Below, in pieces: positions 4,774 through 56,332 of a stretch of DNA of 64,000 nt (within the stretch, counting starts at the first letter, position 1; each line of letters opens with the position of its first letter). A program made the translations under genes and the position numbers. The notes beneath the pieces are model-generated. The model made no database searches. It saw only the letters and a program-made list of their open reading frames with translations, and was not told the origin of the DNA. Source of the DNA: Hygrocybe punicea (taxonomy: Eukaryota > Basidiomycota > Agaricomycetes > Agaricales > Hygrophoraceae); the NCBI GenBank assembly GCA_963556145.1, contig OY744471.1, forward strand, positions 1,047,590 to 1,111,589. Reading direction: 5' to 3'.

Positions 4774-6145
4774 ATGGTCTCCTCAAAACCTATGGGCTCA
4801 AAGCACGAAAACTCACAAAAATCGCGGCGGCGCATTGGCAAGCGAGGTTCACCAAGTCTGTGCAAAAGGTATTTATTAAATTTATCCTTTGGCATCCAAT
4901 CTGAATGTAATGCATGCAGATTGCGACGACGTTTTCTTTTGGTCACCCGCGCCCAGTTGGGTGCAGGTGAACAATTAGATGACCTAAGAGCTGCCCGGAT
5001 CATCACAGAAGCTCTGCTCAATCCGAGTAAGTCATGGTGATTCCAATGGCCCAATCTAATTGTTTCTCCATTGTAGTTTATATTCAGTGGGACCTCGAGG
5101 ATTACGCCACCCGCGTCAAAAAAGGCCTGGGTACCCCGGCCTCAATCGCCCAATTACAGCGCAAGTTCGCAAATCCCCAACTCGGCAGGGTGAATAGACC
5201 CGCAACAGTGGTGGACATGTGTGGACGAATAATAATCTGGTATCTTCCAGGGTTGATATCAGCCCAGCAAGCTGTAAGTCGTGTCATGATCTAGGAGGTT
5301 TAATTCAATAGTAGAGACAAATTAGGATGTTATGCTGAATGGCAGTGAAAGCATACAAGTCATCGGCTCAAAAAAGATTCCTCGTAAACAAACAAGCGGG
5401 AAGGTCAATTGGCGAGTCGACCCAAAACATTTTCGTTTTGATTCTGTGGATCAGAATCTACTGCCGGGAAGTGATGAGTATTCGGCAGGGTGGTTCGCAC
5501 AGGCTCATACTGTGAGTTCCGAAATCCGCCAACATTCCGGTTGCTGGGCTCATTCACATTTTAGAGACCAAGTGACCCTTTGAAGCCTTCTGCGAACCAT
5601 CTTAAGCGGGGTACTGGAGAATGGATGTCTTCAATAGCTGACGTAGAATCGTTCATCAATCGGGTCTTATGGTTCATCCATCACTGCAACAAATCAGCAG
5701 CGAAGCTTTGGACAAGCTTAGGTCGGCCAACCTGACGGCTAAAGTTGCAGGATCCTGGACATCCCATTTCACTGGGATCGCGGTTATCATCAACCGGAAG
5801 ACATTGGCACATCGTGATGGGAATGGTATGCCACCTTGGTATGACTTCCTCCTGGGTATCGGAGACTATCATGATTGCACTCTTGATATGCCCGACCTTG
5901 GACTGCAGCTCGATTACGGGCCCGGAACTGGCATCTTCCTATGTGGCAACAGCATCAGACACGAAGTCACGGACTGGAGTGGTGGGGATCGAGTTTGCTA
6001 TGCTCATTTCCTCAGGAAGAAAGTCTTGGAGCGTCTAAATGTAGAATTGTCAGGGTGGTCTGAGCAGAAAGAGATTTGTACCATCATTCCAGAGGTGAAA
6101 TGTCGTGAATTGGGTATTAAAAACTCGGCACATGTAGCAGCGTAA
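4774..6145 (+). CDS. TET/JBP-like 2-oxoglutarate/Fe(II) dioxygenase (fungal)
   Basis: The family oxidises methylated pyrimidines in DNA. The first exons splice cleanly: 4774 to about 4868, 4919-5027 (joining as LLNPIYIQWDLEDYATRV), and on to ISAQQA at about 5273. A further exon near 5325-5514 contains DQNLLPGSDEYSAGWFAQAHT. The last exon carries the catalytic domain. It has FTGIAVIINR, the metal motif HRD in LAHRDGNG with PWYDFLLGIGDY, then LGLQLDYGPGTGIFL, the distal His in IRHEV, and an Arg in DRVCYAHFLRKKV that would bind 2-oxoglutarate. This order matches fungal TET/JBP proteins. Between about 5600 and 5670 the frame feeding into the last exon (VHPSLQQIS) is blocked by a stop unless an extra splice or a one-base shift is assumed, so the copy may be broken. 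It lies directly upstream of, and in line with, the KDZ transposase gene. Confidence 0.75.
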
Positions 6146-6718
6146 ACATCATTCATAAAATATGTACCCTTGTCCTGAACTTACAAAATATTACTTTTGT
6201 AACATTGCCATCAGCCTATCAGCAGGTTATAGTTCAGATTGTCCACCTTGAGTTGCAATAACAGGAATGAGAGCATCTCAATTGCGTATCTAGGCACTGA
6301 AAGGGAGGTCTGATCTTGGTTGTCTCAAGTTCACGCTTGCATGCTGCAAAAGCACTGCGCCTGGTATATGCCAGGGGGTCAAAGGTGGATAATATAACAT
6401 CGTTCCAAAGGTTGGTGCACACCGGTGCAGGTGGGGACTGGTATTCTGGTTGACCATACTGGCGGGGTAACACTGATCTGCGCAAGTATGAGAAAACAAG
6501 GTGGTATGAGAAAACAAGGTGGTTGTCAGTATTGTCAGGCATGGCTGCGAACCATAAGACCTGCAGAAGAGTTGATGGGAGCACGTGACATGTGTTTCAG
6601 AGCCATGATGTGACATGTCATGCTGACTCGTCGGACGTGACACATCACACATCACGTGTCACATCAACATCAACCATTTGTAAACATCAACCAATTTAAC
6701 ATCAACCACCTCCCAACA
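6146..6718. promoter_or_regulatory. Intergenic region between TET/JBP and KDZ genes
   Basis: No supported coding sequence. The last 130 bases before the KDZ start are dense in CACGTG-type motifs: GCACGTGACA near 6582 and ATCACGTGTCAC near 6650. They also hold the third copy of the GTCA..CGTGAC near-palindrome (6617-6641). Similar CACGTG motifs lie upstream of the minus-strand gene at 61-616. These may be promoter elements or terminal motifs of the element; that is inference. Confidence 0.4.
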
Positions 6719-9700
6719 ATGCCCAAGTTGTCCAAAGAGAAACATGGGAAGAAGAGGACAGCTCAAGAAGTCATCTTTGTTGAGAAAAAGATGAAAAATC
6801 GCACAAAATGGGTATCTAAACCAGTCGCAGGCGAGCTTCCCAAAAGTCCACAGAAATCCAGTCCAAAAAAGTCACCTTTGGATTCAAACCGTCAGCAAAG
6901 CATGTCCCCAGATGTGCCTCCCGACTCAGGTACACCGCAACCTCCAAAGCGCAAGACGGCAAAAGGCAATGTCAGCTATTCCTTTACCTGCTTTGTAGTC
7001 ACTCTGAATTATTGGCAGACCCAAAATTGTTACCTCAGGGAGTGGATTCCACTTCGCAACGAATATCTGAGGGAGATGTTGAGCATGGAAGCTCCTCCTA
7101 TTCCTGCCACCTGTCATATCTGCAAGAAGCAAGGTGGCCCCATTCGCTGCTTGAGCTGTCTCCGTTGTCCATTATTCTGTAAAGAATGTTGTCGAATCTC
7201 CCACCAGGGGACTCCATTCCACAAACTCGAATCATGGAATGGAAGCTGCTTCACCCCATCCTCATTACATGACATAGGATTCTGCTTGCATCTTGGGCAC
7301 GGTGGTGATCCATGTCCCTCCAATTCCGTTCAAGATGTCTGGGAGGATGTTGGGGAAGGCTCATCTTCAATGTCACAGATCGAGAATGATCAGCTGCTAG
7401 TTGACTTGAACCAGGAAGATGATGATAACAACTCGGATGACAGTGTGCTGGTTATGGTTGATATTTCCGGAATCCACCGGCACCGTGTTCGCTGGTGTCA
7501 TTGTCCGTCAAAAGAGGAGCCACAATGGCAATTGTTCAAGACCGGTCTCTTTCCGGCAACATTCAAACATCCTCGCTCGGCATTTACCTTTCAAGTCCTG
7601 GATTACTTTCATGTCGATCAGGTTGAATGTAAGACTTCTGCCAACAATTTCTACTCAAAACTGTGCCGGCTTACAAATAATGCCTTTCCTGACACCGTAT
7701 CGGTGAGTCTCCATCTTAAAGGCTGTATTTATGGATGGTGATGGTGGAATGGACCTGTCAAATAGGACCGCTATAGAGAGCTCATGAGGGTCTCACGGCA
7801 ATGGCGTGACATCAAAGTTCGGAAATGGTTTGGTTATGGCCACGACACCGACAAAGAACCAGGCAACGGCGACCTCGCTTTCTTCTGCCCAGCATGCCCA
7901 CAGCCGGGCATCAACCTCCCTGATAACTGGAAGGAATTGCCTAATCCGTTAGTAAAATGGACCTGCCAATGTTTATTGAAAATAACATTTTCACAGGTGG
8001 TTGTATCGGAGAAGCCTCGTGGTGGATGGAAATTTTACTGCGGAACACATGCACATGAGGAATCCCAGCGATAATGTGGAGCTTACAAATGGAACTGGGT
8101 ATTTTGTGCAAAGAGCTTCCTATGAAGAGCACATCAAGGAAGCCGTGGAGGTCAAACAGGTGCAAAATTCATTTGTTGTGGTCTTAGGTTCCAAACTCAA
8201 ACTTGCATTAGAAATCATCATGTTCCAAGCACAGAGCAGTCACCCAGAGCAATGCAAACAATAAGAACCTGGAATCCACAGGGGTTGGTGCCTGTGCCTG
8301 TGCGAGGCATGGATGCTTCGTTCCACACAGCATGGTGGATTTTCAGAAGGGTGAAAGGTAACGAGGTCAGGTCAGAATGTCCTTGACGTGACCTGAAATC
8401 CTCGTCAGGCAAATGAACATAGACTACTCAATATGTGAAGCCCTCAAGTACAACACCGAAGGCATGCGGCAAGCTCTCTTGTTCTATGATGTGATATGTG
8501 AGTGGGCGGTGAATTTTGGTAGACGTGTGAAGCAGAGTAGTTTTTTGGATGCACCTACCATGGAATTGATCTTTGGTATCGGAAAATTCCATTTAAATGC
8601 TCACAAGGATGACTGCTTTCCAAAATTCTCACCCAACTTTATTCGTGGTGCTGGGCAGCTGGATGGAGAACAGATGGAAACTCTGTGGGCGATCATCGAG
8701 TTGATCTCACGCATCACAAAGTACATGAGCAAGGCTCACCGGCGGGAGATTTTGGATGACATGATGAGACATTCAAACTGGAAAAAGTTGGTTGGAATGA
8801 GTAAGCAACAACCATCACCCTTCTCCTGGTTTGATACTCATCCTCTGAACAGTAAAAATGTTGATAGCAAAACATAAAACAGCCATCAGGGTCAAACGAG
8901 AAAGCAAGGAGGCATATCAAGATTTGTCAAGTTCATTGGATCCCAAATTGGTGAAAAAGTGGAGTGAAAGCCAAACTTTTGCTGAATCACAGCGTGGGGA
9001 TGCACTGAAAATTTATCAAGTTGCTTTGAAGCAAGGTCAGTGATATTTCCTCCCCATAGTAGTGATGAATGAACAGTTCATAGCACCAACTATGGCGGAA
9101 ATATGTCTGAAACTGGGGAGGAACGCCAAGGGGGAAGCAGGAGATTCCAATGCAGTGGCCTGGTTAGTGTCCGGGCTAAATATTGAACAAGCTCAGTATG
9201 TTCCTCACATTATATCATCACTTTCCTGTTCACAATTCTGAATTTCAGGGACAATCTCACTCATGATATGCGAAAGCTTAAAAAAGCCGTTTCCATAGCG
9301 GAACAAAACAAGATTATGGATCGACGAAAACGGTTACAAAGCAGGATTGATGCCTTCCAGAGGAAGACAACCTTTCTACTCAATGGGCATGACGTGGAGG
9401 AAGAGGATTGGGAGGAAAAGGATAAAACATCCCCGGATGTTGGCATGTCCGATGATTCACAAGATTCCGCATCAGATGAGGAAGGAACAGATTATGAAGA
9501 AGATTGTGATCCTATCCTAGCAGAAAACGCTCGTATCAGTTTGCCTTCTAAAATAGGAAAGGAGGTATGTAAAAGGGTGGGATGGATTGAAATGGCTTCA
9601 CAAGAAATGGAGCTTCGAAAAGGACAAGCTAACGAGTCCCTGGAGAAAATACGTTTTGCTCTGGGACATAAAGCATTGCTTTATCGAACAAGGATTAGGA

Positions 9701-10298: not shown

Positions 10299-10560
10299 TA
10301 ACAGGCAAATTTCTTTCGGAGTCAAATATTGGTTTTATTTAATGCTCATTGCATATGAACATCATGTCCAATGAGGCACATCCGATATTGTTGGGCAATA
10401 AATATCCAACACATGGTAGACGGGCTAACGTGATTGGTGCCCCCATGTCAGCAAATCCAATGGAAATGGGAACCTAATATCCTGCTGATGTTGTCGTAGT
10501 GTGTCATAAATAGCCCGCTTGTCCGAGATGGGTTGGATAAGAAGATGGGTGGGATCAAAT
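10299..10560. other. Spacer between KDZ gene and satellite
   Basis: No gene. The 3-prime flank of the transposase gene passes without an obvious terminal repeat into the first satellite monomer near 10561. Confidence 0.4.
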
Positions 10561-13500
10561 ACAAGTGGGGAATAAATATCACACCCAGCTCGGCCCATTC
10601 AATGCCAGTGGGAAACAAATATCCCACCCCATCTCGGCCCATCCAATGCAATTGGGGAATAAATATCCCACCCCATCTCGGCCCATCCAATGCCAGTGGG
10701 GAACAAATATCTGAACCCATCTCGGCCCATCCAATGCCAGTGGGGAACAAATATCTCGGCCCATCCAATTCCAGTGGGAAATAAGTATCTGAACCCATCT
10801 CGGCCCATGCAATGCAATTGGGGAATAAATATCCCACCCCATCTCGGCCCATCCAATGCCAGTGGGGAACAAATATCTGAACCCATCTCGGCCCATCCAA
10901 TGCAATTGGGGAATAAATATCCCACCCCATCTCGGCCCATCCAATGCCAGTGGGGAATAAATATCTGAACCCATCTCGGCCCATCCAATGCAATTGGGGA
11001 ATAAATATCCCACCCCATCTCGGCCCATCCAATGCAATTGGGGAATAAATATCCCACCCCATCTCGGCCCATTCAATGCCAGTGGGAAACAAATATCCCA
11101 CCCCATCTCGGCCCATCCAATGCCAGTGGGGAACAAATATCTCGGCCCATCCAATTCCAGTGGGAAATAAGTATCTGAACCCATCTCGGCCCATGCAATG
11201 CAATTGGGGAATAAATATCCCACCCCATCTCGGCCCATCCAATGCCAGTGGGGAACAAATATCTGAACCCATCTCGGCCCATCCAATGCAATTGGGGAAT
11301 AAATATCCCACCCCATCTCGGCCCATCCAATGCCAGTGGGGAATAAATATCTGAACCCATCTCGGCCCATCCAATGCAATTGGGGAATAAATATCTCACC
11401 CCATCTCGGCCCATCCAATGCCAGTGGGGAACAAATATCTCGGCCCATCCAAGTCCAGTGGGAAATAAGTATCTGAACCCATCTCGGCCCATCCAATGCA
11501 ATTGGGGAATAAATATCCCACCCCATCTCGGCCCATTCAATGCCAGTGGGAAACAAATATCCCACCCCATCTCGGCCCATCCAATGCCAGTGGGGAACAA
11601 ATATCTCGGCCCATCCAAGTCCAGTGGGAAATAAGTATCTGAACCCATCTCGGCCCATCCAATGCAATTGGGCAATAAATATCCCACCCCATCTCGGCCC
11701 ATTCAATGCCAGTGGGAAACAAATATCCCACCCCATCTCGGCCCATCCAATGCCAGTGGGGAACAAATATCTCGGCCCATCCAATTCCAGTGGGAAATAA
11801 GTATCTGAACCCATCTCGGCCCATGCAATGCAATTGGGGAATAAATATCCCACCCCATCTCGGCCCATCCAATGCCAGTGGGGAACAAATATCTGAACCC
11901 ATCTCGGCCCATCCAATGCAATTGGGGAATAAATATCCCACCCCATCTCGGCCCATCCAATGCCAGTGGGGAATAAATATCTGAACCCATCTCGGCCCAT
12001 CCAATGCAATTGGGGAATAAATATCCCACCCCATCTCGGCCCATCCAATGCAATTGGGGAATAAATATCCCACCCCATCTCGGCCTATCCAATGCCAGTG
12101 GGGAATAAATATCTGAACCCATCTCGGCCCATCCAATGCAATTGGGGAATGAATATCCCACCCCATCTCGGCCCATCCAATGCAATTGGGCAATAAATAT
12201 CCCACCCCATCTCGGCCCATCCAATGCCAGTGGGGAACAAATATCCCACCCCATCTCGGCCCATCCAATGCAATTGGGGAATAAATATCCCACCCCATCT
12301 CGGCCTATCCAATGCCAGTGGGGAATAAATATCTGAACCCATCTCGGCCCATCCAATGCAATTGGGGAATAAATATCCCACCCCATCTCGGCCCATCCAA
12401 TGCAATTGGGCAATAAATATCCCACCCCATCTCGGCCCATCCAATGCCAGTGGGGAACAAATATCTCGGCCCATCCAAGTCCAGTGGGAAATAAGTATCT
12501 GAACCCATCTCGGCCCATCCAATGCAATTGGGCAATAAATATCCCACCCCATCTCGGCCCATTCAATGCCAGTGGGAAACAAATATCCCACCCCATCTCG
12601 GCCCATCCAATGCCAGTGGGGAACAAATATCTGAACCCATCTCGGCCCATCCAATGCAATTGGGGAATAAATATCCCACCCCATCTCGGCCCATTCAATG
12701 CCAGTGGGAAACAAATATCCCACCCCATCTCGGCCCATCCAATGCCAGTGGGGAACAAATATCCCACCCCATCTCGGCCCATCCAATGCAATTGGGGAAT
12801 AAATATCCCACCCCATCTCGGCCCATCCAATGCAATTGGGGAATAAATATCCCACCCCATCTCGGCCCATTCAATGCCAGTGGGAAACAAATATCCCACC
12901 CCATCTCGGCCCATCCAATGCCAGTGGGGAACAAATATCTCGGCCCATCCAATTCCAGTGGGAAATAAGTATCTGAACCCATCTCGGCCCATGCAATGCA
13001 ATTGGGGAATAAATATCCCACCCCATCTCGGCCCATCCAATGCCAGTGGGGAACAAATATCTCGGCCCATCCAATTCCAGTGGGAAATAAGTATCTGAAC
13101 CCATCTCGGCCCATGCAATGCAATTGGGGAATAAATATCCCACCCCATCTCGGCCCATCCAATGCCAGTGGGGAACAAATATCCCACCCCATCTCGGCCC
13201 ATCCAATGCAATTGGGGAATAAATATCCCACCCCATCTCGGCCTATCCAATGCCAGTGGGGAATAAATATCTGAACCCATCTCGGCCCATCCAATGCAAT
13301 TGGGGAATAAATATCCCACCCCATCTCGGCCCATCCAATGCAATTGGGCAATAAATATCCCACCCCATCTCGGCCCATCCAATGCCAGTGGGGAACAAAT
13401 ATCTCGGCCCATCCAAGTCCAGTGGGAAATAAGTATCTGAACCCATCTCGGCCCATCCAATGCAATTGGGCAATAAATATCCCACCCCATCTCGGCCCAT

Positions 13501-16500
13501 TCAATGCCAGTGGGAAACAAATATCCCACCCCATCTCGGCCCATCCAATGCCAGTGGGGAACAAATATCTGAACCCATCTCGGCCCATCCAATGCAATTG
13601 GGGAATAAATATCCCACCCCATCTCGGCCTATCCAATGCCAGTGGGGAATAAATATCTGAACCCATCTCGGCCCATCCAATGCAATTGGGGAATAAATAT
13701 CCCACCCCATCTCGGCCCATCCAATGCAATTGGGGAATAAATATCCCACCCCATCTCGGCCCATCCAATGCCAGTGGGGAACAAATATCTGAACCCATCT
13801 CGGCCCATCCAATGCAATTGGGGAATAAATATCCCACCCCATCTCGGCCCATCCAATGCAATTGGGGAATAAATATCCCACCCCATCTCGGCCCATCCAA
13901 TGCCAGTGGGGAATAAATATCTGAACCCATCTCGGCCCATCCAATGCAATTGGGGAATAAATATCCCACCCCATCTCGGCCCATTCAATGCCAGTGGGAA
14001 ACAAATATCCCACCCCATCTCGGCCCATCCAATGCCAGTGGGAAACAAATATCCCACCCCATCTCGGCCCATCCAATGCAATTGGGGAATAAATATCCCA
14101 CCCCATCTCGGCCCATCCAATGCCAGTGGGGAACAAATATCTGAACCCATCTCGGCCCATCCAATGCAATTGGGGAATAAATATCCCACCGCATCTTGGC
14201 CCATCCAATGCCAGTGGGGAATAAATATCCCACCCCATCTCGGCCCATCCAATGCCAGTGGGGAACAAATATCTCGGCCCATCCAAGTCCAGTGGGAAAT
14301 AAGTATCTGAACCCATCTCGGCCCATCCAATGCAATTGGGCAATAAATATCCCACCCCATCTCGGCCCATCCAATGCCAGTGGGGAACAAATATCTGAAC
14401 CCATCTCGGCCCATCCAATGCAATTGGGGAATAAATATCCCACCCCATCTCGGCCCATCCAATGCAATTGGGGAATAAATATCCCACCCCATCTCGGCCC
14501 ATCCAATGCCAGTGGGGAACAAATATCTGAACCCATCTCGGCCCATCCAATGCAATTGGGGAATAAATATCCCACCCCATCTCGGCCCATCCAATGCCAG
14601 TGGGGAATAAATATCTGAACCCATCTCGGCCCATCCAATGCAATTGGGGAATAAATATCCCACCCCATCTCGGCCCATCCAATGCAATTGGGCAATAAAT
14701 ATCCCACCCCATCTCGGCCCATCCAATGCCAGTGGGGAACAAATATCTCGGCCTATCCAAGTCCAGTGGGAAATAAGTATCTGAACCCATCTCGGCCCAT
14801 CCAATGCAATTGGGCAATAAATATCCCACCCCATCTCGGCCCATCCAATGCCAGTGGGGAATAAATATCTGAACCCATCTCGGCCCATCCAATGCAATTG
14901 GGGAATAAATATCCCACCCCATCTCGGCCCATCCAATGCAATTGGGGAATAAATATCCCACCCCATCTCGGCCTATCCAATGCCAGTGGGGAATAAATAT
15001 CTGAACCCATCTCGGCCCATCCAATGCAATTGGGGAATAAATATCCCACCCCATCTCGGCCCATCCAATGCAATTGGGCAATAAATATCCCACCCCATCT
15101 CGGCCCATCCAATGCCAGTGGGGAACAAATATCTGAACCCATCTCGGCCCATCCAATGCAATTGGGGAATAAATATCCCACCCCATCTCGGCCCATTCAA
15201 TGCCAGTGGGAAACAAATATCCCACCCCATCTCGGCCCATCCAATGCCAGTGGGGAACAAATATCTCGGCCTATCCAAGTCCAGTGGGAAATAAGTATCT
15301 GAACCCATCTCGGCCCATCCAATGCAATTGGGCAATAAATATCCCACCCCATCTCGGCCCATCCAATGCCAGTGGGGAACAAATATCTGAACCCATCTCG
15401 GCCCATCCAATGCAATTGGGGAATAAATATCCCACCCCATCTCGGCCCATCCAATGCCAGTGGGGAACAAATATCCCACCCCATCTCGGCCCATCCAATG
15501 CAATTGGGCAATAAATATCCCACCCCATCTCGGCCCATCCAATGCCAGTGGGGAACAAATATCTCGGCCCATCCAAGTCCAGTGGGAAATAAGTATCTGA
15601 ACCCATCTCGGCCCATCCAATGCAATTGGGCAATAAATATCCCACCCCATCTCGGCCCATCCAATGCCAGTGGGGAACAAATATCTGAACCCATCTCGGC
15701 CCATCCAATGCAATTGGGGAATAAATATCCCACCCCATCTCGGCCCATCCAATGCCAGTGGGGAATAAATATCTGAACCCATCTCGGCCCATCCAATGCA
15801 ATTGGGGAATAAATATCCCACCCCATCTCGGCCCATCCAATGCAATTGGGCAATAAATATCCCACCCCATCTCGGCCCATCCAATGCCAGTGGGGAACAA
15901 ATATCTGAACCCATCTCGGCCCATCCAATGCAATTGGGGAATAAATATCCCACCCCATCTCGGCCCATTCAATGCCAGTGGGAAACAAATATCCCACCCC
16001 ATCTCGGCCCATCCAATGCCAGTGGGGAACAAATATCTCGGCCCATCCAAGTCCAGTGGGAAATAAGTATCTGAACCCATCTCGGCCCATCCAATGCAAT
16101 TGGGCAATAAATATCCCACCCCATCTCGGCCCATCCAATGCCAGTGGGGAACAAATATCTGAACCCATCTCGGCCCATCCAATGCAATTGGGGAATAAAT
16201 ATCCCACCCCATCTCGGCCCATCCAATGCAATTGGGGAATAAATATCCCACCCCATCTCGGCCCATCCAATGCCAGTGGGGAACAAATATCTGAACCCAT
16301 CTCGGCCCATCCAATGCAATTGGGGAATAAATATCCCACCCCATCTCGGCCCATCCAATGCCAGTGGGGAATAAATATCTGAACCCATCTCGGCCCATCC
16401 AATGCAATTGGGGAATAAATATCCCACCCCATCTCGGCCCATCCAATGCAATTGGGCAATAAATATCCCACCCCATCTCGGCCCATCCAATGCCAGTGGG

Positions 16501-18290
16501 GAACAAATATCTGAACCCATCTCGGCCCATCCAATGCAATTGGGGAATAAATATCCCACCCCATCTCGGCCCATCCAATGCAATTGGGCAATAAATATCC
16601 CACCCCATCTCGGCCCATCCAATGCCAGTGGGGAACAAATATCTGAACCCATCTCGGCCCATCCAATGCAATTGGGGAATAAATATCCCACCCCATCTCG
16701 GCCCATTCAATGCCAGTGGGAAACAAATATCCCACCCCATCTCGGCCCATCCAATGCCAGTGGGGAACAAATATCTCGGCCCATCCAAGTCCAGTGGGAA
16801 ATAAGTATCTGAACCCATCTCGGCCCATCCAATGCAATTGGGCAATAAATATCCCACCCCATCTCGGCCCATCCAATGCCAGTGGGGAACAAATATCTGA
16901 ACCCATCTCGGCCCATCCAATGCAATTGGGGAATAAATATCCCACCCCATCTCGGCCCATCCAATGCCAGTGGGGAATAAATATCTGAACCCATCTCGGC
17001 CCATCCAATGCAATTGGGGAATAAATATCCCACCCCATCTCGGCCCATTCAATGCCAGTGGGAAACAAATATCCCACCCCATCTCGGCCCATCCAATGCC
17101 AGTGGGGAACAAATATCTCGGCCCATCCAATGCCAGTGGGAAACAAATATCCCACCCCATCTCGGCCCATCCAATGCAATTGGGGAATAAATATCCCACC
17201 CCATCTCGGCCCATCCAATGCCAGTGGGGAACAAATATCTCGGCCCATCCAATGCCAGTGGGAAACAAATATCCCACCCCATCTCGGCCCATCCAATGCA
17301 ATTGGGGAATAAATATCCCACCCCATCTCGGCCCATCCAATGCCAGTGGGGAACAAATATCTGAACCCATCTCGGCCCATCCAATGCAATTGGGGAATAA
17401 ATATCCCACCCCATCTCGGCCCATCCAATGCCAGTGGGGAATAAATATCTGAACCCATCTCGGCCCATCCAATGCAATTGGGGAATAAATATCCCACCCC
17501 ATCTCGGCCCATCCAATGCAATTGGGGAATAAATATCCCACCCCATCTCGGCCCATCCAATGCCAGTGGGGAATAAATATCTGAACCCATCTCGGCCCAT
17601 CCAATGCAATTGGGGAATAAATATCCCACCCCATCTCGGCCCATTCAATGCCAGTGGGAAACAAATATCCCACCCCATCTCGGCCCATCCAATGCCAGTG
17701 GGAAACAAATATCCCACCCCATCTCGGCCCATCCAATGCAATTGGGGAATAAATATCCCACCCCATCTCGGCCCATCCAATGCCAGTGGGGAACAAATAT
17801 CTGAACCCATCTCGGCCCATCCAATGCAATTGGGGAATAAATATCCCACCGCATCTTGGCCCATCCAATGCCAGTGGGGAATAAATATCCCACCCCATCT
17901 CGGCCCATCCAATGCCAGTGGGGAACAAATATCTGAACCCAACTCGGCCCATACAATGCAATTGGGGCATAAATATCCCACCCCATCTCGGCCCATCCAA
18001 TGCCAGTGGGACATAAATATCCTTCCCCATGTCGGCCCATCCAATGCTAATGGGACATAAATATCGGACCCCATCTCGGCCCATCCCATGCCAGTGGGAA
18101 ATACATATCTGACCCCATCTCAGCCCATTCAATTCTAGTGGGCAATCCTTATTTCTAACTTTATGGGCCCATTCAATACCAAGGGACAGAAATATCTCGG
18201 CTCATCTCGGCCCATCCAATCCTATAGGTCTGGATAATATCTCGGCCCATCTTGGCCCATCCACTGGGATTGGGGGTTTAGCTCATGGGC
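10561..18290. repeat. 44-bp satellite array, about 7.7 kb
   Basis: Roughly 170 tandem monomers of 44 bases. The shared core is CCCATCTCGGCCCATCCAAT. Monomers fall into classes by the other half: AATGCAATTGGGGAATAAAT with ATCCCACC; AATGCCAGTGGGGAACAAAT with ATCTGAACC; a form with GGGAAACAAATATCCCACC; and AAGTCCAGTGGGAAATAAGT. A shortened 34-base class lacks 10 bases (GAACCCATCT). Blocks of classes recur in the same order, showing higher-order amplification. From about 17940 the units decay, and the array fades out by 18290. The unit has no stop in any minus-strand frame and 44 is not a multiple of 3, so minus frames of up to 953 codons cycle through a 44-residue pattern (GWAEMGWDIYSPIALDGPRW). 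These are not genes. Confidence 0.95.
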
Positions 18291-24961: not shown

Positions 24962-25267
24962 GTTGCATGGGGATGGGAGGTGCGAAAAAAATGAAAATTT
25001 AAATTGGCGATCTGGGGTCTGTAGAGTCACTTGCACTGAGCGTATGGGTGGGGGATCTCATGGTTCGAAGGGCTAGTCGATATGTTGAGAATTGAGGGAG
25101 ATATGTCAAATACATTTCTGGGCTATTTTTTGACGTGTTTTCGCGTGACCGTCAAGTCACGTGACAAGCACAATAATGTCCTGAGGTCTAGCCTTCCCGC
25201 TATGTATATTATTTATTGTGCTGCTCCCCAAATATTTAGAACCTGAGCTTAAAAGGGGGACACCCTC

Positions 25268-26328
25268 TATGGCAACAGGGACTGGTCAGCCCTAAAAATG
25301 GAATGAGATAAGCGTGCCGTTCACACTTCCGACGCGGCATTGCATTAGGACCCGGGACACTACTCCTCTATCAATTAGTTTAGATATTCCTATGCCTGTT
25401 GACGACAGTGGGCTTGCCCAGTATCTTTTTCATACTTTTTCATACTATATATATTATATATTCATCAATAATAGACTACGATACATGATAAACTGAGTGG
25501 AAAGGATAAAATGGGTGGGGTACAGTTGAAACCACTAAGAAAGGTGAGGTAGCATGGTAATAGGATTTAGCAAGGGTAGCAGGATGTACCTGAGGGGCAG
25601 GGGGTAGCGGAACACACCCAGGAGTAGCGGGATGTGCCCAAGGGGCAGCAGGGTAGCGGGACAGATCTGAGGGGCCGTGGGGGTAGCAGGACATGCCCAG
25701 GGGGCAGCAGAGGGTAGCGGGAGGGTGATGGGACGTACCTGCGAAGTGGCGAAGTGAAGGTGAGAGGGGCCCGCAGGTCGGGGCACTCTGAGGGGTTGGG
25801 GAGTGGTAGGAGGGTACTTACTCGGGTGATTTAGCCCGGTTCCATCGTCAGAGACAACGGCCTCGCCCGCGATATCCTTACCCCCATCCGAGGCGGCCCA
25901 TCATCATCGTCGTTGCTGCTGTTGTCATCGTCCGCTTCTGCATTCGTTGTCGTTGCTGCCACCGGTTCCTGGCCCCGGCACCCTTGCCCCCACCCGAGGC
26001 GGCCGTCATCATCGTTGCTGCTGCCGTCCGCTTCTACTTTTGTTGTTGTTGCTGCCATTGGTTTCTGGCCTTGGCATCCTTGCCCCCATCCGAGGCGCGG
26101 CCCATCGTCATCGTCGTTGCTGCTGCCGTCCACTTCTGACTTTGTTGTCATTGTTGCTGTCGGTTTCTGGCCTCGGCATCCTTGCCCCATCCGAGGCGCG
26201 GCCCATCGTCATCATCGTTGCTGCTGCCGTCCGCTTCTGACTTCGTTGTCGTTGCTGCCGTCGGTTTCTGTCCTCGGCATCCTTACCCCCATCCGAGGCG
26301 GACTACAGTAGTTCACTCTGCAACGGAG
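25268..26328. repeat. Left terminal inverted repeat of the alpha-kinase element
   Basis: The reverse complement is found at about 31599-32562. The outer part holds an AT-rich stretch (ATATATATTATATATTC near 25448). The inner part has 4-5 repeats built on TCCGCTTCTG..GTTGTCGTTGCTGC. The right arm has fewer of these units, which accounts for the length difference. Confidence 0.9.
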
Positions 26329-26826
26329 TCGGTTATGGAACAGGCGTGAGTTTTTCCATCCGCTTTCACTAATAGATGCACTCACTACGATTTCAAAAAG
26401 TGTGGCGTGGTGCGCTAGTTTTCTGCTTAGAGTGACCGTCATGACAATTGCTAAGTCGCTTTGTAATGACAATGATGTTTGTACATTATTTGGATGGACT
26501 GCTTGGACAGTGCGCCCAAATAAACAACCAGATTAGGAAAGGGCGACAGACAATTTTATATGGACGATTTTAAGATGACACGACAAAGGAATGACTACGG
26601 CAATTATCGAGAAAACGAGTCCAAATGAGTGAGTGTCATAGCAGACAGGGCAATGAAATAACCAGGGTATAGTGCACCGAAAGGAGGTCCAAAACGATGA
26701 TTCCGGAGCATGGTCAATGGCCGCAAATTGGCCGCAATTCTGTCTGGATGCTGTCAAAACAAGTTTGAGTTCTTTTCCGAAACAGCAAGGGTACGAACTC
26801 ACATTATTTAATAGTGGGAATCACCA

Positions 26827-29543
26827 TTAGGTGGTTTGGCTAGGATGAATGGATATAGCTGAGATTGACATTTCGCGAGTTTCAAGGCCTGGGTCAATTA
26901 AGACTCTACCGGATCTGGGTTGTCCTACCGGTATGTTCATCAATGAAGAGCCTGAAGTCTCGTACCCCTTCTGAACATCACCAATGGGTTCAGGACCTTC
27001 GGGTGCGGCCACTGTGGGCTCGGTGTATTCGGTAGGCAAGTCGAAATAGTGACAAAATTTGTTACAAAAATGATCGTTCTTGAACTGATCATGTGCTTCA
27101 GCGAGATTTCCAGATGCAAACAGCATGCCAAGGGAACTAGCAGATCTCGGTCAAGCATATTCAAGATAAAGTTAATAAATACTCACCTGTCCGTCACGAT
27201 TTGTGGATCTGACAACAGATGATCGCCTCCTGCCAGGGACAATGGAGTGTGAGCATGCTCGAAACTGTTGAAAAAATACACACGCACCCTGATAGTCTGT
27301 CACAAACACGAGTTCGCTTGTCTTCCAGTACTGAACATGCTGGGAAAATGCAAGAAATTCTGCCCGCTCGACATCCTCATTGTGGCCGAAGAAGAGCAGA
27401 GATGCTGATCCATTATGAATGTACTTTCGAAACGGTCCTTCAGTCTCAGCTGCGACAACTTCTTCAACAAGGAAAACCCTCTTTTCCCCTCCCTTATCAT
27501 AGGCTAGTGCTGACTGAACGAACCGCATATCAGGGATTGACATCGGTGGTTTTCCACGGATTGCAATCTGCTTATCGATGAATCGGTAAACCAATTCTAA
27601 CAAGGCATGGGCCCAAACGAAACAAGTGATTTCAGTGGTGAGGTCCCTCAGTTGTAAATGGCTATCAACGGCAATCTTCTGTTCAACGAAGACACGACAT
27701 CCAAATGAGTTGACCACTTCCTTCTTTTTCGATGTGAATATCTGCTTAACGCAAACATCCACACTCTCCCCAAATACAGTTTCACTCGCCGTTCCAAGAT
27801 AAGCCATTTTGAAACCTCCTGATAACTGTTGCCCAGGACTCATATTTAGGTGCAGGTAAACCTGCTTTGGCCGATTCCAGTCCAAATTGTCCCGGTAGTG
27901 GGATTCTTTCATGAGTTCCTCAAGATTCTTTTGCTTGACGAAATAAAGACAGACTGGTATTAATTTCATGTCCACTGTTCATTTTGTCAGAATGATGTGC
28001 AAATGTACGCTGAAGGCTTGAAACTTACAAAGCTGCCGAATCTCCTTCTTTGAAGGACGATGCTGAGCACGAAGGGCTGATCAGAGGACTGTCTTATCAG
28101 GGGACACTAGGTCTGGAGAGTTGTCCCCTACATATCGGAATCGCTTTTGTGGAGGTGTCTTCGGAGGACTTTGAGTGGATACCTCTGTGGGGTGGGAGAT
28201 TGTCCTGCAGCGTTTGTTATAGCTTTGCAAATCCGGTCCAGTTGCCTCAGGAAGAAAAAGAGGCTCATCCTGTGCCAATGCAGGTTGACTCGGTATGTTT
28301 TCCTGATGTGCTGTAGTTGCCAGCGCCGGATCTGGGTACTTGTCACCTGGTATGTTAGGGCTTTTTTCGGCAGCCTATTCTCATACTTGCGGTAAGCAAG
28401 CATCCACATGAGGTATAACTGATTACACATACATCTTTGTCATTTTCAAGCGCATCACTCCATACTTCGAAGTTGGAAAATATCTTGTCTGGCACATGGA
28501 GATAGATCAAACATTTCCCGGTGCGGAATTTTGGTGCACCGTTCTTTGCTTGTCTAAAGAATTGGGTAGAAATGGCACCTCTCTCCTGGGTTAAAGGCAC
28601 CCAGTCTTTGTTACGCAATATAACATCGGCACTGTGCAAGGGGAAACCCTTTGAAAAATCCATCCATAGCCGCTCTATCGCCATGAACGCCATATCTTTT
28701 AAGTCTTTTGCTCCAATATGAACTGGAATATTGTCGATTGCTTCAAAAATTCCCTGTTATTCAGCATGAGGAGGGTAATTGCTCAAAAAGTTATGACATA
28801 CACCAAGTAAGACTTTTGTCGTCTTTCCGAGAGGAATGTGCACTAATTGGCATTCCACTGTCACTACCTCACCGGCATTATTTGCGTATGCCTGCTTTGC
28901 CATCTTATCTCGCAACAAGGCATAGACAGCGTGGTTACTCGTATATCCAGCTGGCAAAACTTTTGACATCGCTGGAACAAATGATGGTTGCTGTCCTGGC
29001 AACTGTATGGTAGGGTATGTCCCGCTACTTTTCTGGGGAGCGTGATATTGCTGAATAAATGGAAGAGCCGGGGGAGGCATCAGCAGATGAGGATCTCCGA
29101 TGGCTTGCACAGGGTGAGACGGCCCTGAAATTTGATTCAATTTGGAGAAAGGGTAAGGAACGGATTGAAAAGATATACCTCCTCGTTGTGCTTGTGCGAC
29201 CTGGGTGTGAACCTCTTTTTTTTTAATTTGCAACCCATTCTGATCTTCATCTAGAATGACAGGAAGGGTGAAGAAGATTTAGAGAATTGAATGACAGATA
29301 CAGACCTCTACGTATTGTGGTTGTCTTTTTAACATAATAAGAATAACATTCACTGCAAACAGCTCTTCCAGGACGAGTAGGATCGGCACTGTACAGATAC
29401 TCGAGACTGGTGCCTGGTGGGAAGACCCTTACTCGGCATTCCTTCTGACCACAAATAACGGCTTGGGTTGAGTCAGGATTAGTGAAGCATGCAGCATACA
29501 TGATGATAGAATGAAGCCAAAATCCAGTCAAATTTTCACACAT
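26827..29543 (-). CDS. Alpha-kinase (atypical Ser/Thr kinase), multi-exon
   Basis: The first exon (29543 to about 29300) has a cysteine-rich, probably zinc-binding module: CGQKECRVRVFPPGT, then CSECYSYYVKKTTT. A low-complexity linker, a block with MAFMAIERLWMDFSKGF, and a Pro/Ser-rich linker follow. The kinase domain begins near 27890: LSGGFKMAYLG, VCVKQIF (candidate nucleotide Lys), FLVEEVV, FRKYIHNGSA, AEFLAFSQHVQYWKTSELVF and VTDYQG. Splicing an intron at about 27237-27295 gives GGDHLLSDPQIVT. The last exon gives LGMLFASGNLAEAHDQFKN and HFCNKFCHYFDLP. These are the ordered motifs of the alpha-kinase family, including the Gly-rich loop and the C-terminal His/Cys zinc site. No stop was found in the domain. 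The gene lies tail to tail with neither TIR and directly downstream of the transposase gene. Confidence 0.82.
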
Positions 29544-29590
29544 TGGTAATTTCCCTCGGTTAAAAAGATTTTTTTTATTGTCATAAGAAA

Positions 29591-31470
29591 CTATGAGGAA
29601 TCTTCAGATGGCGTGAAGTAGGCGTATTCCCGCATGTCTATATTACCCTCCTCATCCATGGTAGGAGGATTGGCTAATCCACCCATGTAACAATAGCCAA
29701 GCTCACCAACATTACTGTCGCCATGAGGTAAATCCCGTAGGCCTGAAAGAAGCTCAATTTCATCGACTTCGGCTTGTACGTCACATAGAGATTCATCCAG
29801 CAATGGGTTGTCTGGAATATTTCGGAATCCAGCCAGTATTGCGGCATATATGTCCCAAAATGTTGTCGAAGTAACTCCTGGCCATCCAATGCCATTATAG
29901 ATGGGAACCACACATGCTTCGAAGGCCGTTGGAACAAGTAAAAAGACAGGATTGTTTGGATTGGCCCATTCCCTTTCCATCTCGTCAAACAACTCCGGGG
30001 GCACGATAATCTTGCCAAAGTAATTCAGTTTACATTCCATGTGATGTAGAAGACACTACCTTAAAATCACATGTGCCATACAGATGCGGTTTGGCAGCAA
30101 TGAGGTCAGGGATTCCACAAGGTAAAACTTTATTCTTGTCAGCTCGTCGAGGTGTTGAATTGAACCTTCGCATCCAAGCATCAAGCTCAGCTTGAAGCCA
30201 GGGGATGGCAAGCCAACGGAAGATAAGTCTATTCTCATAAAAGTACATTAGATTCACTTAAGAAAATAACCGTACTCACCGCTCAAGAGGGTCATCGGCA
30301 TTATATAAGCCACTATTAAAGCCAGAATCTAATATGTCCTCAAATCCAGGTGTAAACTGGCGCCATAACTGAGACCAGCCTGCTTCAGGCTTAACATTCA
30401 TCTTATCCCGTTTCCAACGATGTTGAATAGTGTTGGAGAGGGCAGGATCGAGGCGGTGGCGGATGAGAGTGTGGCAATTTGCAATGCCATAGTTTTCCGA
30501 GCCCAGATCACTCTGTGTGATGAGTGGAACACCTGATAGTAAAGTGTCAGCCACAAATAATTTGAAAAGAAGGCCATACCACCCAACGCTCGTCCTGCTT
30601 CCAGATAATAACTTGTGATGAGACGAGGATTACGATTAGTCCACCAGATCTTCAACCATGCCAACCGGCCAGAAAATGGGTCAAGGCCCATGTGCAACCA
30701 CAGTCCAAAGCGTTTCCATTTGTCATGTTGATCAAACACAAGAAGATCCATTACTCCAGCTGCCCAAAATCGCTTTCTCTTAAACCGATGTTTCAAGTGC
30801 TGCTTGACAGCATCACGTTCCACTAAGTTGAGCCAATCCAAAAGTGTTTTCCTTGTGAACTATCAGTATTGGAAGTCAACGGTGATTTTAAGAAAAAAAC
30901 TAAACGCACTCAGCAACCTTTATATTGTGGTCTTGCCTCAAAACAGATACCATCTGGCGGGCTCCCATGGTTGGAAACCGCGAGCGAATTTCGGCAACAA
31001 AGGGTGCAATAGTCTCAGGTGAATGTTGCTGCTGCCGTGCACTCAATAGCCCCCATTTCTTTCGGAGTCGTTTGAGGGATTTGAGGCTGGCGGAACAAGA
31101 TATCCAAGTCAGCTAATCTAGAATGATACAAAACACGGTACCTAAGCCCATAGATGGCTGAATCGTAATGGTCCCGAACATGTCTGAGGATGGCTGTGTC
31201 AGGCAAACCGAGAGACCAGTAGTGGCGAACAAATGGCTCTAAGACCTGCTCAGGAGCTAGAATGTGGCATGAGATTCATGGACGGGTGACTCTTGCCTGT
31301 ACGTACGCAATGGTTTGTGTTGGTTCGAGTGAGACATCGTTGAAAGCACGAACACGTGTCACTTGCTCAGTCACTGCCTTGTCATGATGCTAACTGGCTG
31401 CTATACATGTATCGCTGCTACAACGACCACGGTGGCCGGGATTCGATTGAACCACCTTAAGCGGGCCAGC
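29591..31470 (-). CDS. Integrase-fold (rve-like) DDE transposase
   Basis: N-terminal part: PEQVLEPFVRHYWSLGLPD and TAILRHVRDHYDSAIYGL (about 31250-31140), a helical DNA-binding-like region, then ETIAPFVAEIRSRFPTMGAR. Catalytic core: FKRKRFWAAGVMDLLVFDQ, HDKWKRFGLWLHMGLDPF (first Asp), WLKIWWTNRNPRLITSYY, PLITQSDLGSENYGIANCH (second Asp), and NVKPEAGWSQLWRQF (Glu about 41 residues further). Then come LIFRWLAIPWLQAELDAW and FNSTPRRADKNKVLPCGIP, and a C-terminal exon ending at 29591. The whole is a family I recall from many Agaricomycete proteomes, usually annotated as an integrase core-domain protein. At least five introns are needed. The exact start is uncertain. No lesion was seen in the core. 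It is inside the long-TIR element and is its likely mobilising enzyme. Confidence 0.75.
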
Positions 31471-31598
31471 GTACATCAACGGAGATGGGTGGGGCAATAC
31501 CTCGGAACGACGACGAGATGATAGCAGGATGGCGTCAAACGCCGTCCATGGCTGCAATCTTCCCTAAACTCAACAACCATGATTGGAGGTCTGAATGC

Positions 31599-32562
31599 TC
31601 TCCATTGCAGGGTGGACTACTGTAGGCCGCCTCGGATTGGGGTAAGGATGCCGAGGACAGGGCCAGAAACCGACGGCAGCAATGACAACGAAGTCAGAAG
31701 CGGACGGCAGCAGCAACGACGATGACGATGGGCCGCCTTGGATGGGGGCAAGGATGCCGAGGCCAGAAACCAACGGCAGCAACAACAACGAAAGTAGAAG
31801 TGGACGGCAGCAGCAACGACGATGACGGCCGCCTCGGGTGGGGGCAAGGGTGCCGGGGCCAGGAACCGGCGGCAGCAACAACAACGAATGCAGAAGCGGA
31901 CGACGACAACAGCAGCAACGACGATGACGATGGGCCGCCTCGGATGGGGGTAAGGATATCGCGGGCGAGGCTGTTGTCTCTGACGATGGAACCGGGCCAA
32001 ATCACCCGAGTAAGTACCCTCCTACCACTCCCCGACCCCTCAGAGTGCCCTGACCTGCGGGCCCCTCTCACCTTCACTTCGCCACTTCGCAGGTACGTCC
32101 CATCACCCTCCCGCTACCCTCTGCTGCCCCCTGGGCATGTCCTGCTACCCCCACGGCCCCTCAGATCTGTCCCGCTACCCTGCTGCCCCTTGGGCACATC
32201 CTGCTACTCCTGGGTGTGTTCCGCTACCCCCTGCCCCTCAGGTACATCCTGCTACCCTTGCTAAATCCTATTACCATGCTACCTCACCTTTCTTAGTGGT
32301 TTCAACTGTACCCCACCCATTTTATCCTTTCCACTCAGTTTATCATGTATCATAGTCTATTATTGATGAATATATAATATATATAGTATGAAAAAGTATG
32401 AAAAAGATACTGGGCAAGCCCACTGTCGCCAACAGGCATAGGAATATCTAAACTAATTGATAGAGGAGTAGTGTCCCGGGTCCTAATGCAATGCCGCGTC
32501 GGAAGTGTGAACGGCACGCTTATCTCATTCCGTTTTTAGGGCTGACCAGTCCCTGTTGCCAT
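31599..32562. repeat. Right terminal inverted repeat of the alpha-kinase element
   Basis: Inverted partner of 25268 to about 26328, ending CCCTGTTGCCAT before the ACACCCTC duplication. Apparent proteins in this stretch (up to 180 codons, reading ATTTTKVEVDGSSNDDDG) are translations of the internal repeat and have mirror images in the left arm. Confidence 0.9.
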
Positions 32563-32575
32563 ACACCCTCACACA

Positions 32576-34593
32576 TCAGGACTTTCCACATTTAGTCAGG
32601 ATCTAAAGTGATTTCTAAAGTTAGCACCAAAATATAATCTTTAGATTTACATTTAGGCCTAGCCTAAATATTGAATTTAAGTCACAAATAAATGTATATC
32701 TAAATTATTTATTTATTTTCATCTTTAGGTTATTCTTGCAATCAAAATAATTATCAGATCTATATTGTAAGGGGAAAGTATAATTTAGTTCCAAGTTTAC
32801 TCAAATTTCTAGTCCAAATTTAGGCATCACCTAAAGGCAGGCCAAAATTAAAACTTTCGGTAGCGTTAAAATAATAAATTTAATAATTATCAAAATGTAA
32901 GATTTTCGGCAGCTATTTAAATTCAAAGTTGTTGTTAGATCTAAAGCTATTGCCCGCGCCATTGCCCGCTCATCGCCCGCCCGTCGCCCACCCATTGCCC
33001 ACCCATCTCCCAATCTTACCTCACGAGCCCAGCTCCAACGTCAATTGACATGGTGGTGGGGTTCGTGAGGTGATGACAGAGGTAGGGGGAGAGGCAGGTG
33101 GGGGAGATGGCAGGGGCGACAAGGGTGTACGGGGGCACGACAGAATGAGAGCGAGATGGCGGGGGCACGATAGGATGGGAGGGTGACGAGCGTGGGTGAT
33201 GAGGGTGTGGGAGATGGCGGGGGCACGATAGGATGGGAGGGCGACGAGGGTGTAGGTGATGAGGTGTGGGAGATGGCGTGGGCATGGCACGATGGGATGG
33301 GAGGAGATGGCGTGGGGGACGAGGGAGTGGGAGGGTGAGGAGATGGCGTGGGCGTGGGCGACAAGGGTGTGGCGTGGGCGACGAGGGTGTGGATGACGAG
33401 GGTGTGGGAGATGGCGTGGGGTGTGGGCGAGGGAGGTGATGGCGGAGGTGGCTTGGCAGAGATGGCGTTGGCGATGAGGGTGAGGGAGATGGCGTGGACA
33501 TGGGTGAGGGAGATGGCGGGGGCACGATGGGAGGGCGACGAGAGGGTGTGGGAGATTGCGTGGTGATGGGATGGGATGGTGGGGAGATGGCGTGGGTGTG
33601 GACGAGGGAGATGGCGCGGGCATGGCCATGGGGGATCCAATTTTGGATGGGTTAGATGTGGGCGACGAGAGCGTGGGCGATGAGAGTGTGGCGATGAGAG
33701 CGTGGGCGATGAGAGCGTGGCGATGGGAGCGTGGGCGATGAGAGCATGGCGACGGCGTGGCGATGAGAGCGTCGCGTGTGCGACGAGGGTGCGGCGTGGG
33801 CGACAAGGGTGTGGGAGATGGCGAGTGTGAGGAGAGATGGCGACGACGACGAGGGAGATGGGAGATGGCGTGGGTGTGGACGAGGGAGATGATGGGGAGG
33901 GCGGAGGTGTGGGCGACGGCTTGGCAGGAAATCGAGGGTGGGAAATGGCGGCGAGGGCAAGGGAGATGGTGTGGGGTGTGGGAGATCGTCATACTTGGGC
34001 AGGGGAGATGCCGGGGATGGGATGAGCGGGAGCGGGAGAGATGGCGAGATGGCGTCACGGTGGGTGTGAGGTCGAAAAAAAAAAATTGATTGGTTTTGTC
34101 GACGTCGGAGCTGGGTTCAGGTCATGATTGGGAGGTGGGCGACGGGTGGGCGATGGGTGGGCGATGGGTGGGCGATGGGTGGGCGATGGGTGGACGACGG
34201 GTGGGCGATTGCGCGGGCAATAGCTTTAGTTCTGATTGAAATTTGGAATGTTGATAACCGCCGAATTTTTTTTTTTGATAACTATTAAATCCATTATTTT
34301 AGTCACACTGAAAGTTTAAATTTTGGCCTGCCTTTGGATGATACCTAAATTTAGACTAGCAAATTTGAGTAAACTTGTAGCGAAATTCTGTTTTCCTTCC
34401 ACAATCTAGAACAGGTCATCATTTTAATTGTAAAACTAGTCTAAAGATGAAACTAAATAAATACTTTAGATGTACATTTATTTGTGACTTAAATTCAATA
34501 TTTAGGCTAGGCCTAAATGTAAATCTAAAAATTATATTTTTCCGCTCACTTTAGAAACCACTTTAGACCCCAACTAAATGTTGGAACTCCTGA
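32576..34593. mobile_element. Non-coding long-TIR element with GC-rich minisatellite core
   Basis: The ends TCAGGACTTTCCACATTTAG (32576) and CTAAATGTTGGAACTCCTGA (34593) are inverted. Inverted similarity continues for about 470 bases on each side, through AT-rich sequence into GCCCACCCATCGCCC-type repeats and the word CCCAGCTCC(A/G)ACGTC. The centre (about 33060-34060) is a purine-biased minisatellite of GGGAGATGGCGTGGGCG and GACGAGGGTGTG words. No transposase is encoded. The 345- and 199-codon minus frames (Pro/His/Ser-only) are repeat artefacts. No target duplication was found. It begins 5 bases after the target duplication of the preceding element. Confidence 0.6.
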
Positions 34594-34809
34594 GGTGTCA
34601 GCAGTGCTTCAATCTGCTGCGTTTTGGCGGCGGGATGGTGCACGTCATCGGAGATAAGACCTTTACTCCGAATATTCCACAAGTTGAGCGCTAGGGTATG
34701 GCCGGAGCGAAAGCGAAATGGTCAGCGCTTGGGCAGAAGCGACACGATGCAAAGAACCGTTATTTGGCTGGAGCCCCGTTATCCCATCTGCGCCTGATCT
34801 CCAACACTC

Positions 34810-54984: not shown

Positions 54985-56332
54985 ATGTATGACGACAGTA
55001 GTGGTACCATCATCCTCCACATGGCTGAAGAAGATGACGACGCATTCGAAGCTTATCGCCAACTTGTGGTAGCATGTGTTGGCCTCATAGGGCACGGTGT
55101 CCTTGAATCACGTCGGGTCAAGAGGGAACGCCGCCAGGTCACCCGACATTACCTCCGCCAACCAGACCTCATCCCCAATCCTCATAGAGACACCCCTTGG
55201 CAGCAACTCTATGAGAGCTGCAATGATAGTGCCTTCATCACCATTCTTTCCATTGATGTCGACACCTTTTTCCTCATACTTACCAGTGGATTTGCAGCTT
55301 CGTGGGATAGTAATACCATTCTCCGAGCTGACATGAAAGCCAACAGTGTCCCTTGTATTACACACCGGTCCCTAGATGCTGCCGGGGCACTTGTGTTAGC
55401 CCTTCATCATGTCACTTCCACCGGTTCCCCACAGTCACTTTCCCTTATCTTTGCATTGGTTCCAGCTACCATTCAACGTTACATCCAGTTTTCCCTCTCA
55501 ATCTTGCTACAGACCCTCCAGTCTATGCCTAATGGCCATGTTGTGTGGCCCAAAGGCAGCCAATTCGAAGAGTTCAATGAACTCATCGTTTACCGCCATC
55601 CTCTATTAATGGGGGCCTTCGGGTCAATGGATGGGCTTAATTTACCACTACAGGAGTCGACAGATGAGGAGTTTGAGAATTCAACTTACAATGGGTGGCT
55701 ACATGCACATTTTATCACTAATGTCTTTGTCTTTGCGCCAAACGGTGAGCTGCCTGCTAACTGTGTCAAATGATTTGTTCTGAAACTAATCAATAAATGA
55801 CAGGTGAGATTCTTGCATGCAAGATTAATGCCCCTGGTAGCTGGAACGACTCATGGAACTCTGAGGGAATCTACCAGACGCTCCTTCATGATACTCCTGA
55901 TGGTTACTATCTCATTGCAGATTCCACATTCCCGCGTGGCTGCGCCAACATTGATGGTCGGATCCATGTACCTCTGACCATCCACAGCAATCTTCCCTCT
56001 GACGAGCATGACCGCGCCTGAGTCCTCGCATTTGACAGACAAGTATTGTCCTATCGTCAGATGGCAGAGTGGGGTAACCACATCCTGCAGACAACTTTTG
56101 GCCAGCTCCGGCTGCCACTCTCATCCAAGGATCATCAAGGCCATGTGGAACTCATACAAATATGTGTTCGGCTGCACAATGTCCGGACCCGTTGTGTGGG
56201 GCTGAATCAAATTCAATCGGTCTATATGCCAGCTGACTTAGACAAAGAGTGGAGGAACTTCGAGGACAGGATTTTTCCTTCAGACGTCCGGAATAGTCAA
56301 GTCTTGCGTTTCCAGGCTGTAGCTTCTGCATA
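54985..56332 (+). pseudogene. PIF/Harbinger DDE transposase, premature stop
   Basis: Starts MYDDSSGTIILHMAEEDDD (54985). DDE_4-type core: AFGSMDGLNLPLQESTD (first Asp), then an intron at about 55745-55802 joining FAPNG to EILACKINAPGSWNDS, DGYYLIADSTFPRG (second Asp), and VLSYRQMAEWGNHILQTTFG (Glu in the R-Q-M-A-E-W-G motif). The C-terminus ends FQAVASA at 56332. Between the second Asp and the Glu an in-frame TGA at 56019-56021 follows HDRA and no intron can remove it. The CGA-to-TGA type of change fits. The catalytic Glu lies beyond this stop, so the copy should be inactive unless read through. Confidence 0.85.

Follow-up and report, generated by a model that had tools for sequence, protein, structure and literature searches.

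A locus in the genome of the basidiomycete Hygrocybe punicea raises the question of why an alpha-kinase gene is enclosed by the same terminal inverted repeats as a transposase gene. The initial annotation of the 64,000-nucleotide stretch of DNA analysed here (hereafter the window) proposed a new type of transposon, with the kinase as its passenger. Our analysis instead favours, with a probability of about three in four, an intact-looking, full-length copy of an IS3EU element in which the kinase is a second core gene, inherited together with the transposase and kept by selection.

Boundaries and gene content of the element

The features of the DNA transposon in the window are collected in Table 1. 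Its outermost inverted-repeat arms (25268-26097 and 31734-32563) comprise 830 nt at 98% complementarity and are prolonged by additional arms to approximately 26328 and 31600, in agreement with the ~1-kb repeats originally described; the left repeat also holds an array of four ~100-bp repeats (25886-26285). The sequence ACACCCTC, found at 25260-25267 and 32563-32570 (8 matches in the window compared to 1.7 expected by chance), had been taken as an 8-bp target duplication. However, the first A of the right-hand copy is the final base of the inverted repeat (CCATA). The duplication of the window copy is consequently 7 bp, CACCCTC; where other copies have exact duplications, these measure 6 or 7 bp.

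Table 1. Coordinates of the element in the window and of related elements elsewhere in the genome. Introns of the gene models were inferred from GT..AG and frame.
Feature	Position	Strand	Description
Whole IS3EU-type element	25268..32563	.	7,296 bp, TATGG...CCATA
Left target site duplication	25261..25267	+	CACCCTC, 7 bp
Right target site duplication	32564..32570	+	CACCCTC, 7 bp
Left terminal inverted repeat	25268..26328	+	~1.06 kb; repeat analysis of window
Right terminal inverted repeat	31600..32563	-	~0.96 kb; repeat analysis of window
Transposase gene	29591..31337	-	7 exons, 478 aa, Pfam rva_4
Transposase exons	31337-31307, 31256-31142, 31086-30910, 30851-30580, 30532-30280, 30228-30060, 30010-29591	-
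Alpha-kinase gene	26827..29543	-	9 exons, 763 aa
Alpha-kinase exons	29543-29306, 29250-28802, 28753-28466, 28418-28347, 28302-28132, 28062-28029, 27974-27288, 27229-27187, 27136-26827	-
Element of the tail-to-tail family	C7:7284161-7290050		TATGG ends, 34-bp repeats, 5-bp duplication
Related element	C1:240674-249910		TATGG ends, 276-bp repeats, duplication 6 bp with one mismatch
Related element	C34:497441-504539		TATGG ends, 930-bp repeats, no duplication

None of seven unspliced open reading frames tried against Pfam matched rva_4 or Alpha_kinase. The predicted spliced models are both open frames, with GT..AG introns of 44-69 nt, and matched rva_4 (transposase; 'Integrase core domain', E 2.3e-8, 34.4 bits, cut-off 26) and Alpha_kinase (kinase; PF02816, E 1.1e-13, 52.1 bits, cut-off 21.3). 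Two intact-looking genes on one strand, encoding an integrase-fold transposase and an alpha-kinase within one bounded element, are thus retained from the initial annotation. An apparent premature stop in the kinase, a TGA at ~28083, was dismissed as it falls inside an intron of the final model. The kinase ATG is located 47 bp downstream of the transposase stop, suggesting that the two genes may share a transcript in the window family.

In the transposase, the motifs DQHDK and QSD.G.EN and an E motif align in most families, the choice of catalytic residues being our own; a search of the PDB with this protein gave no meaningful match. The kinase comprises a Cys-rich N-terminus, a conserved middle and a C-terminal alpha-kinase domain (Pfam match at residues 543-689). 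It could be aligned to 1ia9, the kinase structure solved for a transient receptor potential-related protein (E 1.4e-6), and D.QG, DP.I and HxCN..C are visible in comparison with both 1ia9 and myosin heavy chain kinase A, in keeping with the catalytic and zinc-binding residues of the PF02816 family. Across the aligned families the motifs K, DxQG, DPQI and HxCxxxC are visible with some exceptions: the conserved lysine is replaced in E18 and one zinc cysteine in C40_2074. Among six families compared, the Cys-rich N-terminus could be aligned in five and the middle region, at least partly, in all.

Copies of the element and evidence of mobility

Searching the 92-Mb assembly with the terminal 200 bp gave 44 matches, some of them partial, and 13 copies with both ends, including the window copy (E1). 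The ends, TATGGCAAC, are constant in all 13. Exact duplications of 6 bp flank seven copies (E3, E4, E5, E7, E8, E13 and E14) and of 7 bp four (E1, E2, E6 and E9), while those of E12 and E15 match at 5 of 6 bases. The 11 exact duplications differ between copies, and varying duplications around fixed ends, for which the initial annotation had proposed a test, are thus observed.

Both genes are carried by E1-E5, whose aligned bodies are 96-98% identical at the nucleotide level; one in-frame TGA is present in the kinase core of E4. E7, E8, E10 and E12 are derivatives of 1.7-2.3 kb without the genes, the outermost bases being missing from E10. As the short derivatives E7, E8 and E12 lack both genes, neither gene appears to be needed in cis. 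The matching ends of E6 and E9 lie 53 kb and 41 kb apart, with exact 7-bp duplications, and transposase and kinase pieces are situated between them (DNA of the interiors read from 3-kb end loci). Giant cargo transposons were rejected as an explanation, since the kinase of E6 and both genes of E9 are split into pieces, which nested insertions explain; we read the two as copies of the window element with nested insertions.

Empty sites were searched for with joined flanks, using 13 constructs at first, four of which were searched again. With 40 of 1194 candidates scored in the first search and 40 of 221 in the second, absent empty sites carry little weight. Uninterrupted related sites with a single copy of the duplication were found for six of the 13 constructs (E3, E4, E7, E12, E13 and E14), and the second search added an empty related site for E2 (one of four constructs), giving seven of the 13 copies. 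As the empty sites of E2 (84%), E3 (98%) and E4 (87%) belong to copies with both genes, the two genes evidently came in one insertion. No spanning empty site was found among the candidates scored for E5, E6, E8, E9 and E15. An empty site for the window copy itself, which the initial annotation had suggested looking for in strains, was likewise lacking among the candidates scored, even after bridging the neighbouring insertion.

Linkage of transposase and kinase across the genome

Of the 48 matches to the kinase core that were kept, 40 had a transposase of the window type no more than 3.4 kb away, at one of 44 such loci (the 25 left out of a total of 73 were additional exons of loci in the list). 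With 8 kb on either side these 44 loci make up <1% of the genome. The transposase count used 108 of 138 matches; 29 of those left out were exons of listed loci, leaving the 44 clusters unchanged, and one match is unaccounted for. As a control, 0 of 96 TET/JBP matches over the cut-off (out of 138) were within 20 kb of 42 transposases of the window type, the nearest lying at 23.9 kb. Counted from the transposase, a kinase was found within 8 kb at 39 of the 44 loci, one of the five without being the split copy E9. The repeats of the element enclose five of the eight far kinase matches (E6 with two; E9, E13 and E15 with one apiece), and three are outside any recognised element. At least 75 other rva_4 loci, clustered from part of the matches listed, had no kinase of the window type within 8 kb. 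The pairing thus seems specific to the window transposase type, and the idea that it is a trait of the whole rva_4 family was discarded.

The linked pairs occur in several arrangements. Opposite strands were found for 26 of the 40, all tail to tail, and the same strand for 14, comprising 11 with the transposase followed by the kinase (the window clade), two with the kinase first and one for which the nearest transposase may not be the partner. The same linkage in differing arrangements indicates that it outlived rearrangement. Terminal sequences in other families are TATGGAAACC and TATGGCAACAG. A 3.6-kb unit with a tail-to-tail transposase-kinase pair is 99.9% identical between two loci (842-4443 of L051 and 770-4371 of L052), with no TATGG ends at the points where the similarity stops.

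Not all alpha-kinases of this genome belong to such pairs. Eleven of 30 Pfam alpha-kinase matches are at window-family loci and 19 are elsewhere, the latter being, among the matches listed, at least 28 kb from window-type transposases and at least 16 kb from rva_4 loci. Two loci of this second family, located on two contigs (L075 and L076), were read; they share 98.6% identity across 1,071 bp, and comparing them with the window kinase gave no useful similarity. The second family is itself repeated, IS3EU does not account for it, and another repeat is possibly its carrier. The initial suggestion that transposition drove the expansion of alpha-kinases thus explains one family but only part of the expansion, 19 matches being away from such a transposase.

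Co-divergence and selection

Trees were calculated from 11 loci, obtained by removing near-duplicates from 19 that had been aligned; the 19 represent about half of the linked loci. For these 11 loci the distance matrices of transposase and kinase gave a Mantel r of 0.815, and 0 of 20,000 permutations were as high (largest 0.737). The maximum-likelihood trees of the 11 families disagree at a single node, where the transposase tree joins C7_7286 with C35_833 (support 88) and the kinase tree places it with C7_4529 and C6_595 (support 66). Values of dN/dS were obtained from 14 pairs, three between-family pairs being saturated. Between E1 and E18 the ratio was 0.10 for the transposase and 0.15 for the kinase, between E5 and E18 0.11 and 0.15, and between C7_4529 and C6_595 0.08 and 0.19, respectively. 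By these ratios, purifying selection acts on transposase and kinase alike when families are compared. Among young copies, eight pairs with few changes gave values from 0.29 to 1.95, once undefined, a spread expected if many individual copies drift.

The transposase and kinase have thus apparently evolved side by side, and the kinase seems to be a functional part of the element rather than a stowaway. The passenger originally proposed would be a host gene captured and amplified by the transposon, with no role in transposition. Such an origin is in line with the drift of individual young copies, the five of 44 transposase loci without a kinase within 8 kb and the presence of a second, unlinked alpha-kinase family. 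However, the near-congruent trees of 11 families, the purifying selection on the kinase between families and its retention through three gene arrangements argue against it. We consider a passenger unlikely, and a kinase that has co-diverged with the transposase under purifying selection is better called a core component.

Relation to known transposons

The families in the IS3EU/GingerRoot paper (PMC10045372, 2023) have TA..TA termini, duplications usually of 6 bp and an integrase-like DDD/E transposase, all of which are shared by the window element; the word kinase is absent from the main text of that paper. Judged by termini, duplication length and transposase, the window element fits the IS3EU superfamily on every feature tested: TA..TA termini in the 13 copies with both ends, duplications of exactly 6 bp in seven, exactly 7 bp in four and matching at 5/6 in two, and an rva_4 match. 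A new superfamily with an 8-bp duplication was accordingly rejected, and the claim of a new transposon type was given up, as a kinase has already been mentioned in TET-bearing IS3EU families (PMC12730594).

The latter, from Pucciniales rusts and the truffle Tuber indicum, also encode an alpha-kinase according to a passing remark (Kojima 2025, PMC12730594). As described there, they resemble the window element in their TAYGG..CCRTA ends, 6-bp duplications and the presence of transposase and alpha-kinase in one element, but the genes are in opposite orientation with TET/JBP in between. In the window element the genes are head to tail and 47 bp apart, a gap too small for a TET/JBP gene, which is absent; the repeats are ~1 kb long and exact 7-bp duplications occur. 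Other families of the H. punicea genome share the opposite (convergent) orientation with the published elements. Styx of Zymoseptoria (PMC10853768; 7,927 bp) likewise has several accessory genes and a DDD/E transposase, linked by its authors to IS3EU, but its four listed frames are transposase, GATA, CCHC and DUF3577 proteins, with no kinase among them, and its repeats are 36 bp.

Only PMC12730594 combined 'IS3EU' and 'alpha-kinase' in the literature searched, and no title or abstract start dealt with the head-to-tail, TET-less form or the co-evolution of the two genes; subscription papers and Repbase were mostly outside this search, so priority is not certain. The superfamily and, from that one remark, the kinase in its TET-bearing members are known, and the new part is quantitative, i.e. 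linkage, tree congruence, selection and empty sites.

KDZ transposons with TET/JBP are similarly fungal DNA transposons with an accessory enzyme. They have a different transposase and an 8-bp duplication, whereas the 11 exact duplications found here are 6 or 7 bp, and their accessory gene encodes a dioxygenase rather than a kinase.

Possible role of the kinase

The ends, the staggered insertion, the joint insertion of both genes, their linkage, co-divergence and selection are evident at the level of sequence. In the mechanism that we propose, the transposase would recognise the TATGG-ended inverted repeats and insert the element with a 6- or 7-bp stagger, transposition presumably being carried out by this integrase-fold enzyme. 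The kinase, seemingly co-inherited with the transposase through 11 families and three gene arrangements, most likely boosts transposition or protects the element. It could do so through phosphorylation in trans of the transposase or of a host factor involved in silencing or repair, and the Cys-rich N-terminus may target it. An anti-silencing role is plausible because TET/JBP sits between the two genes in the other fungi described (PMC12730594).

Purifying selection and stable linkage alone do not specify what is selected, and the kinase could also maintain the element as a selfish or addiction module, or as a gene of benefit to the host, without acting in transposition. This appears improbable to us, as copies without both genes persist (E7, E8 and E12) and the 47-bp gap separating transposase and kinase is too small to hold a partner gene, although neither observation is decisive. 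The genome has many nested insertions (E2-E6 and E9), but there is next to no chance that kinase and transposase are unrelated neighbours joined by accident or nested insertion. This is contradicted by the copy structure, as five copies that differ in site and in duplication have both genes between the same ends, and by related empty sites for three of these five.

The reading of the kinase as a second core gene can be extended, tentatively and with slightly less than even odds, to an ancestrally two-component fungal IS3EU. The kinase would then act in transposition or against silencing as a factor that is required or of strong benefit, co-diverged with the transposase since before the rust/mushroom/truffle split, with TET/JBP slotted in later. 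If the two-component reading is true, one of the genome's two large alpha-kinase families is a transposon protein and not part of host signalling. A high degree of expansion in rusts has been ascribed to alpha-kinases (PMC4469406); a wheat-rust comparison has them in a domain table (PMC5295586), and one is among the rust genes listed as under diversifying selection (PMC4150398). We propose that, if many rust alpha-kinases are IS3EU components, their counts reflect transposon load, not signalling. In addition, the element provides an example, open to experiment, of a eukaryotic DNA transposon in which a protein kinase is a conserved component.

Neighbouring features in the window

The right target duplication is adjoined by a 2-kb repeat (32573-34597) bearing CAC..GTG termini and a TCA duplication of 3 bp, which we read as CACTA-like; the left repeat of E2 contains an inserted copy of it with 96% identity. 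A very long tandem array at 10448-18132, composed of repeated MGWDIYSPIALDGPRW-like units, is open in several minus-strand frames. At 5738-6019 and 6656-7741 there are a Tet_JBP domain and, close to it, an open reading frame with a Cys-rich region that we take to resemble the CxC domains of KDZ transposons, and the open reading frame at 54985-55773 presumably resembles a Harbinger-type transposase.
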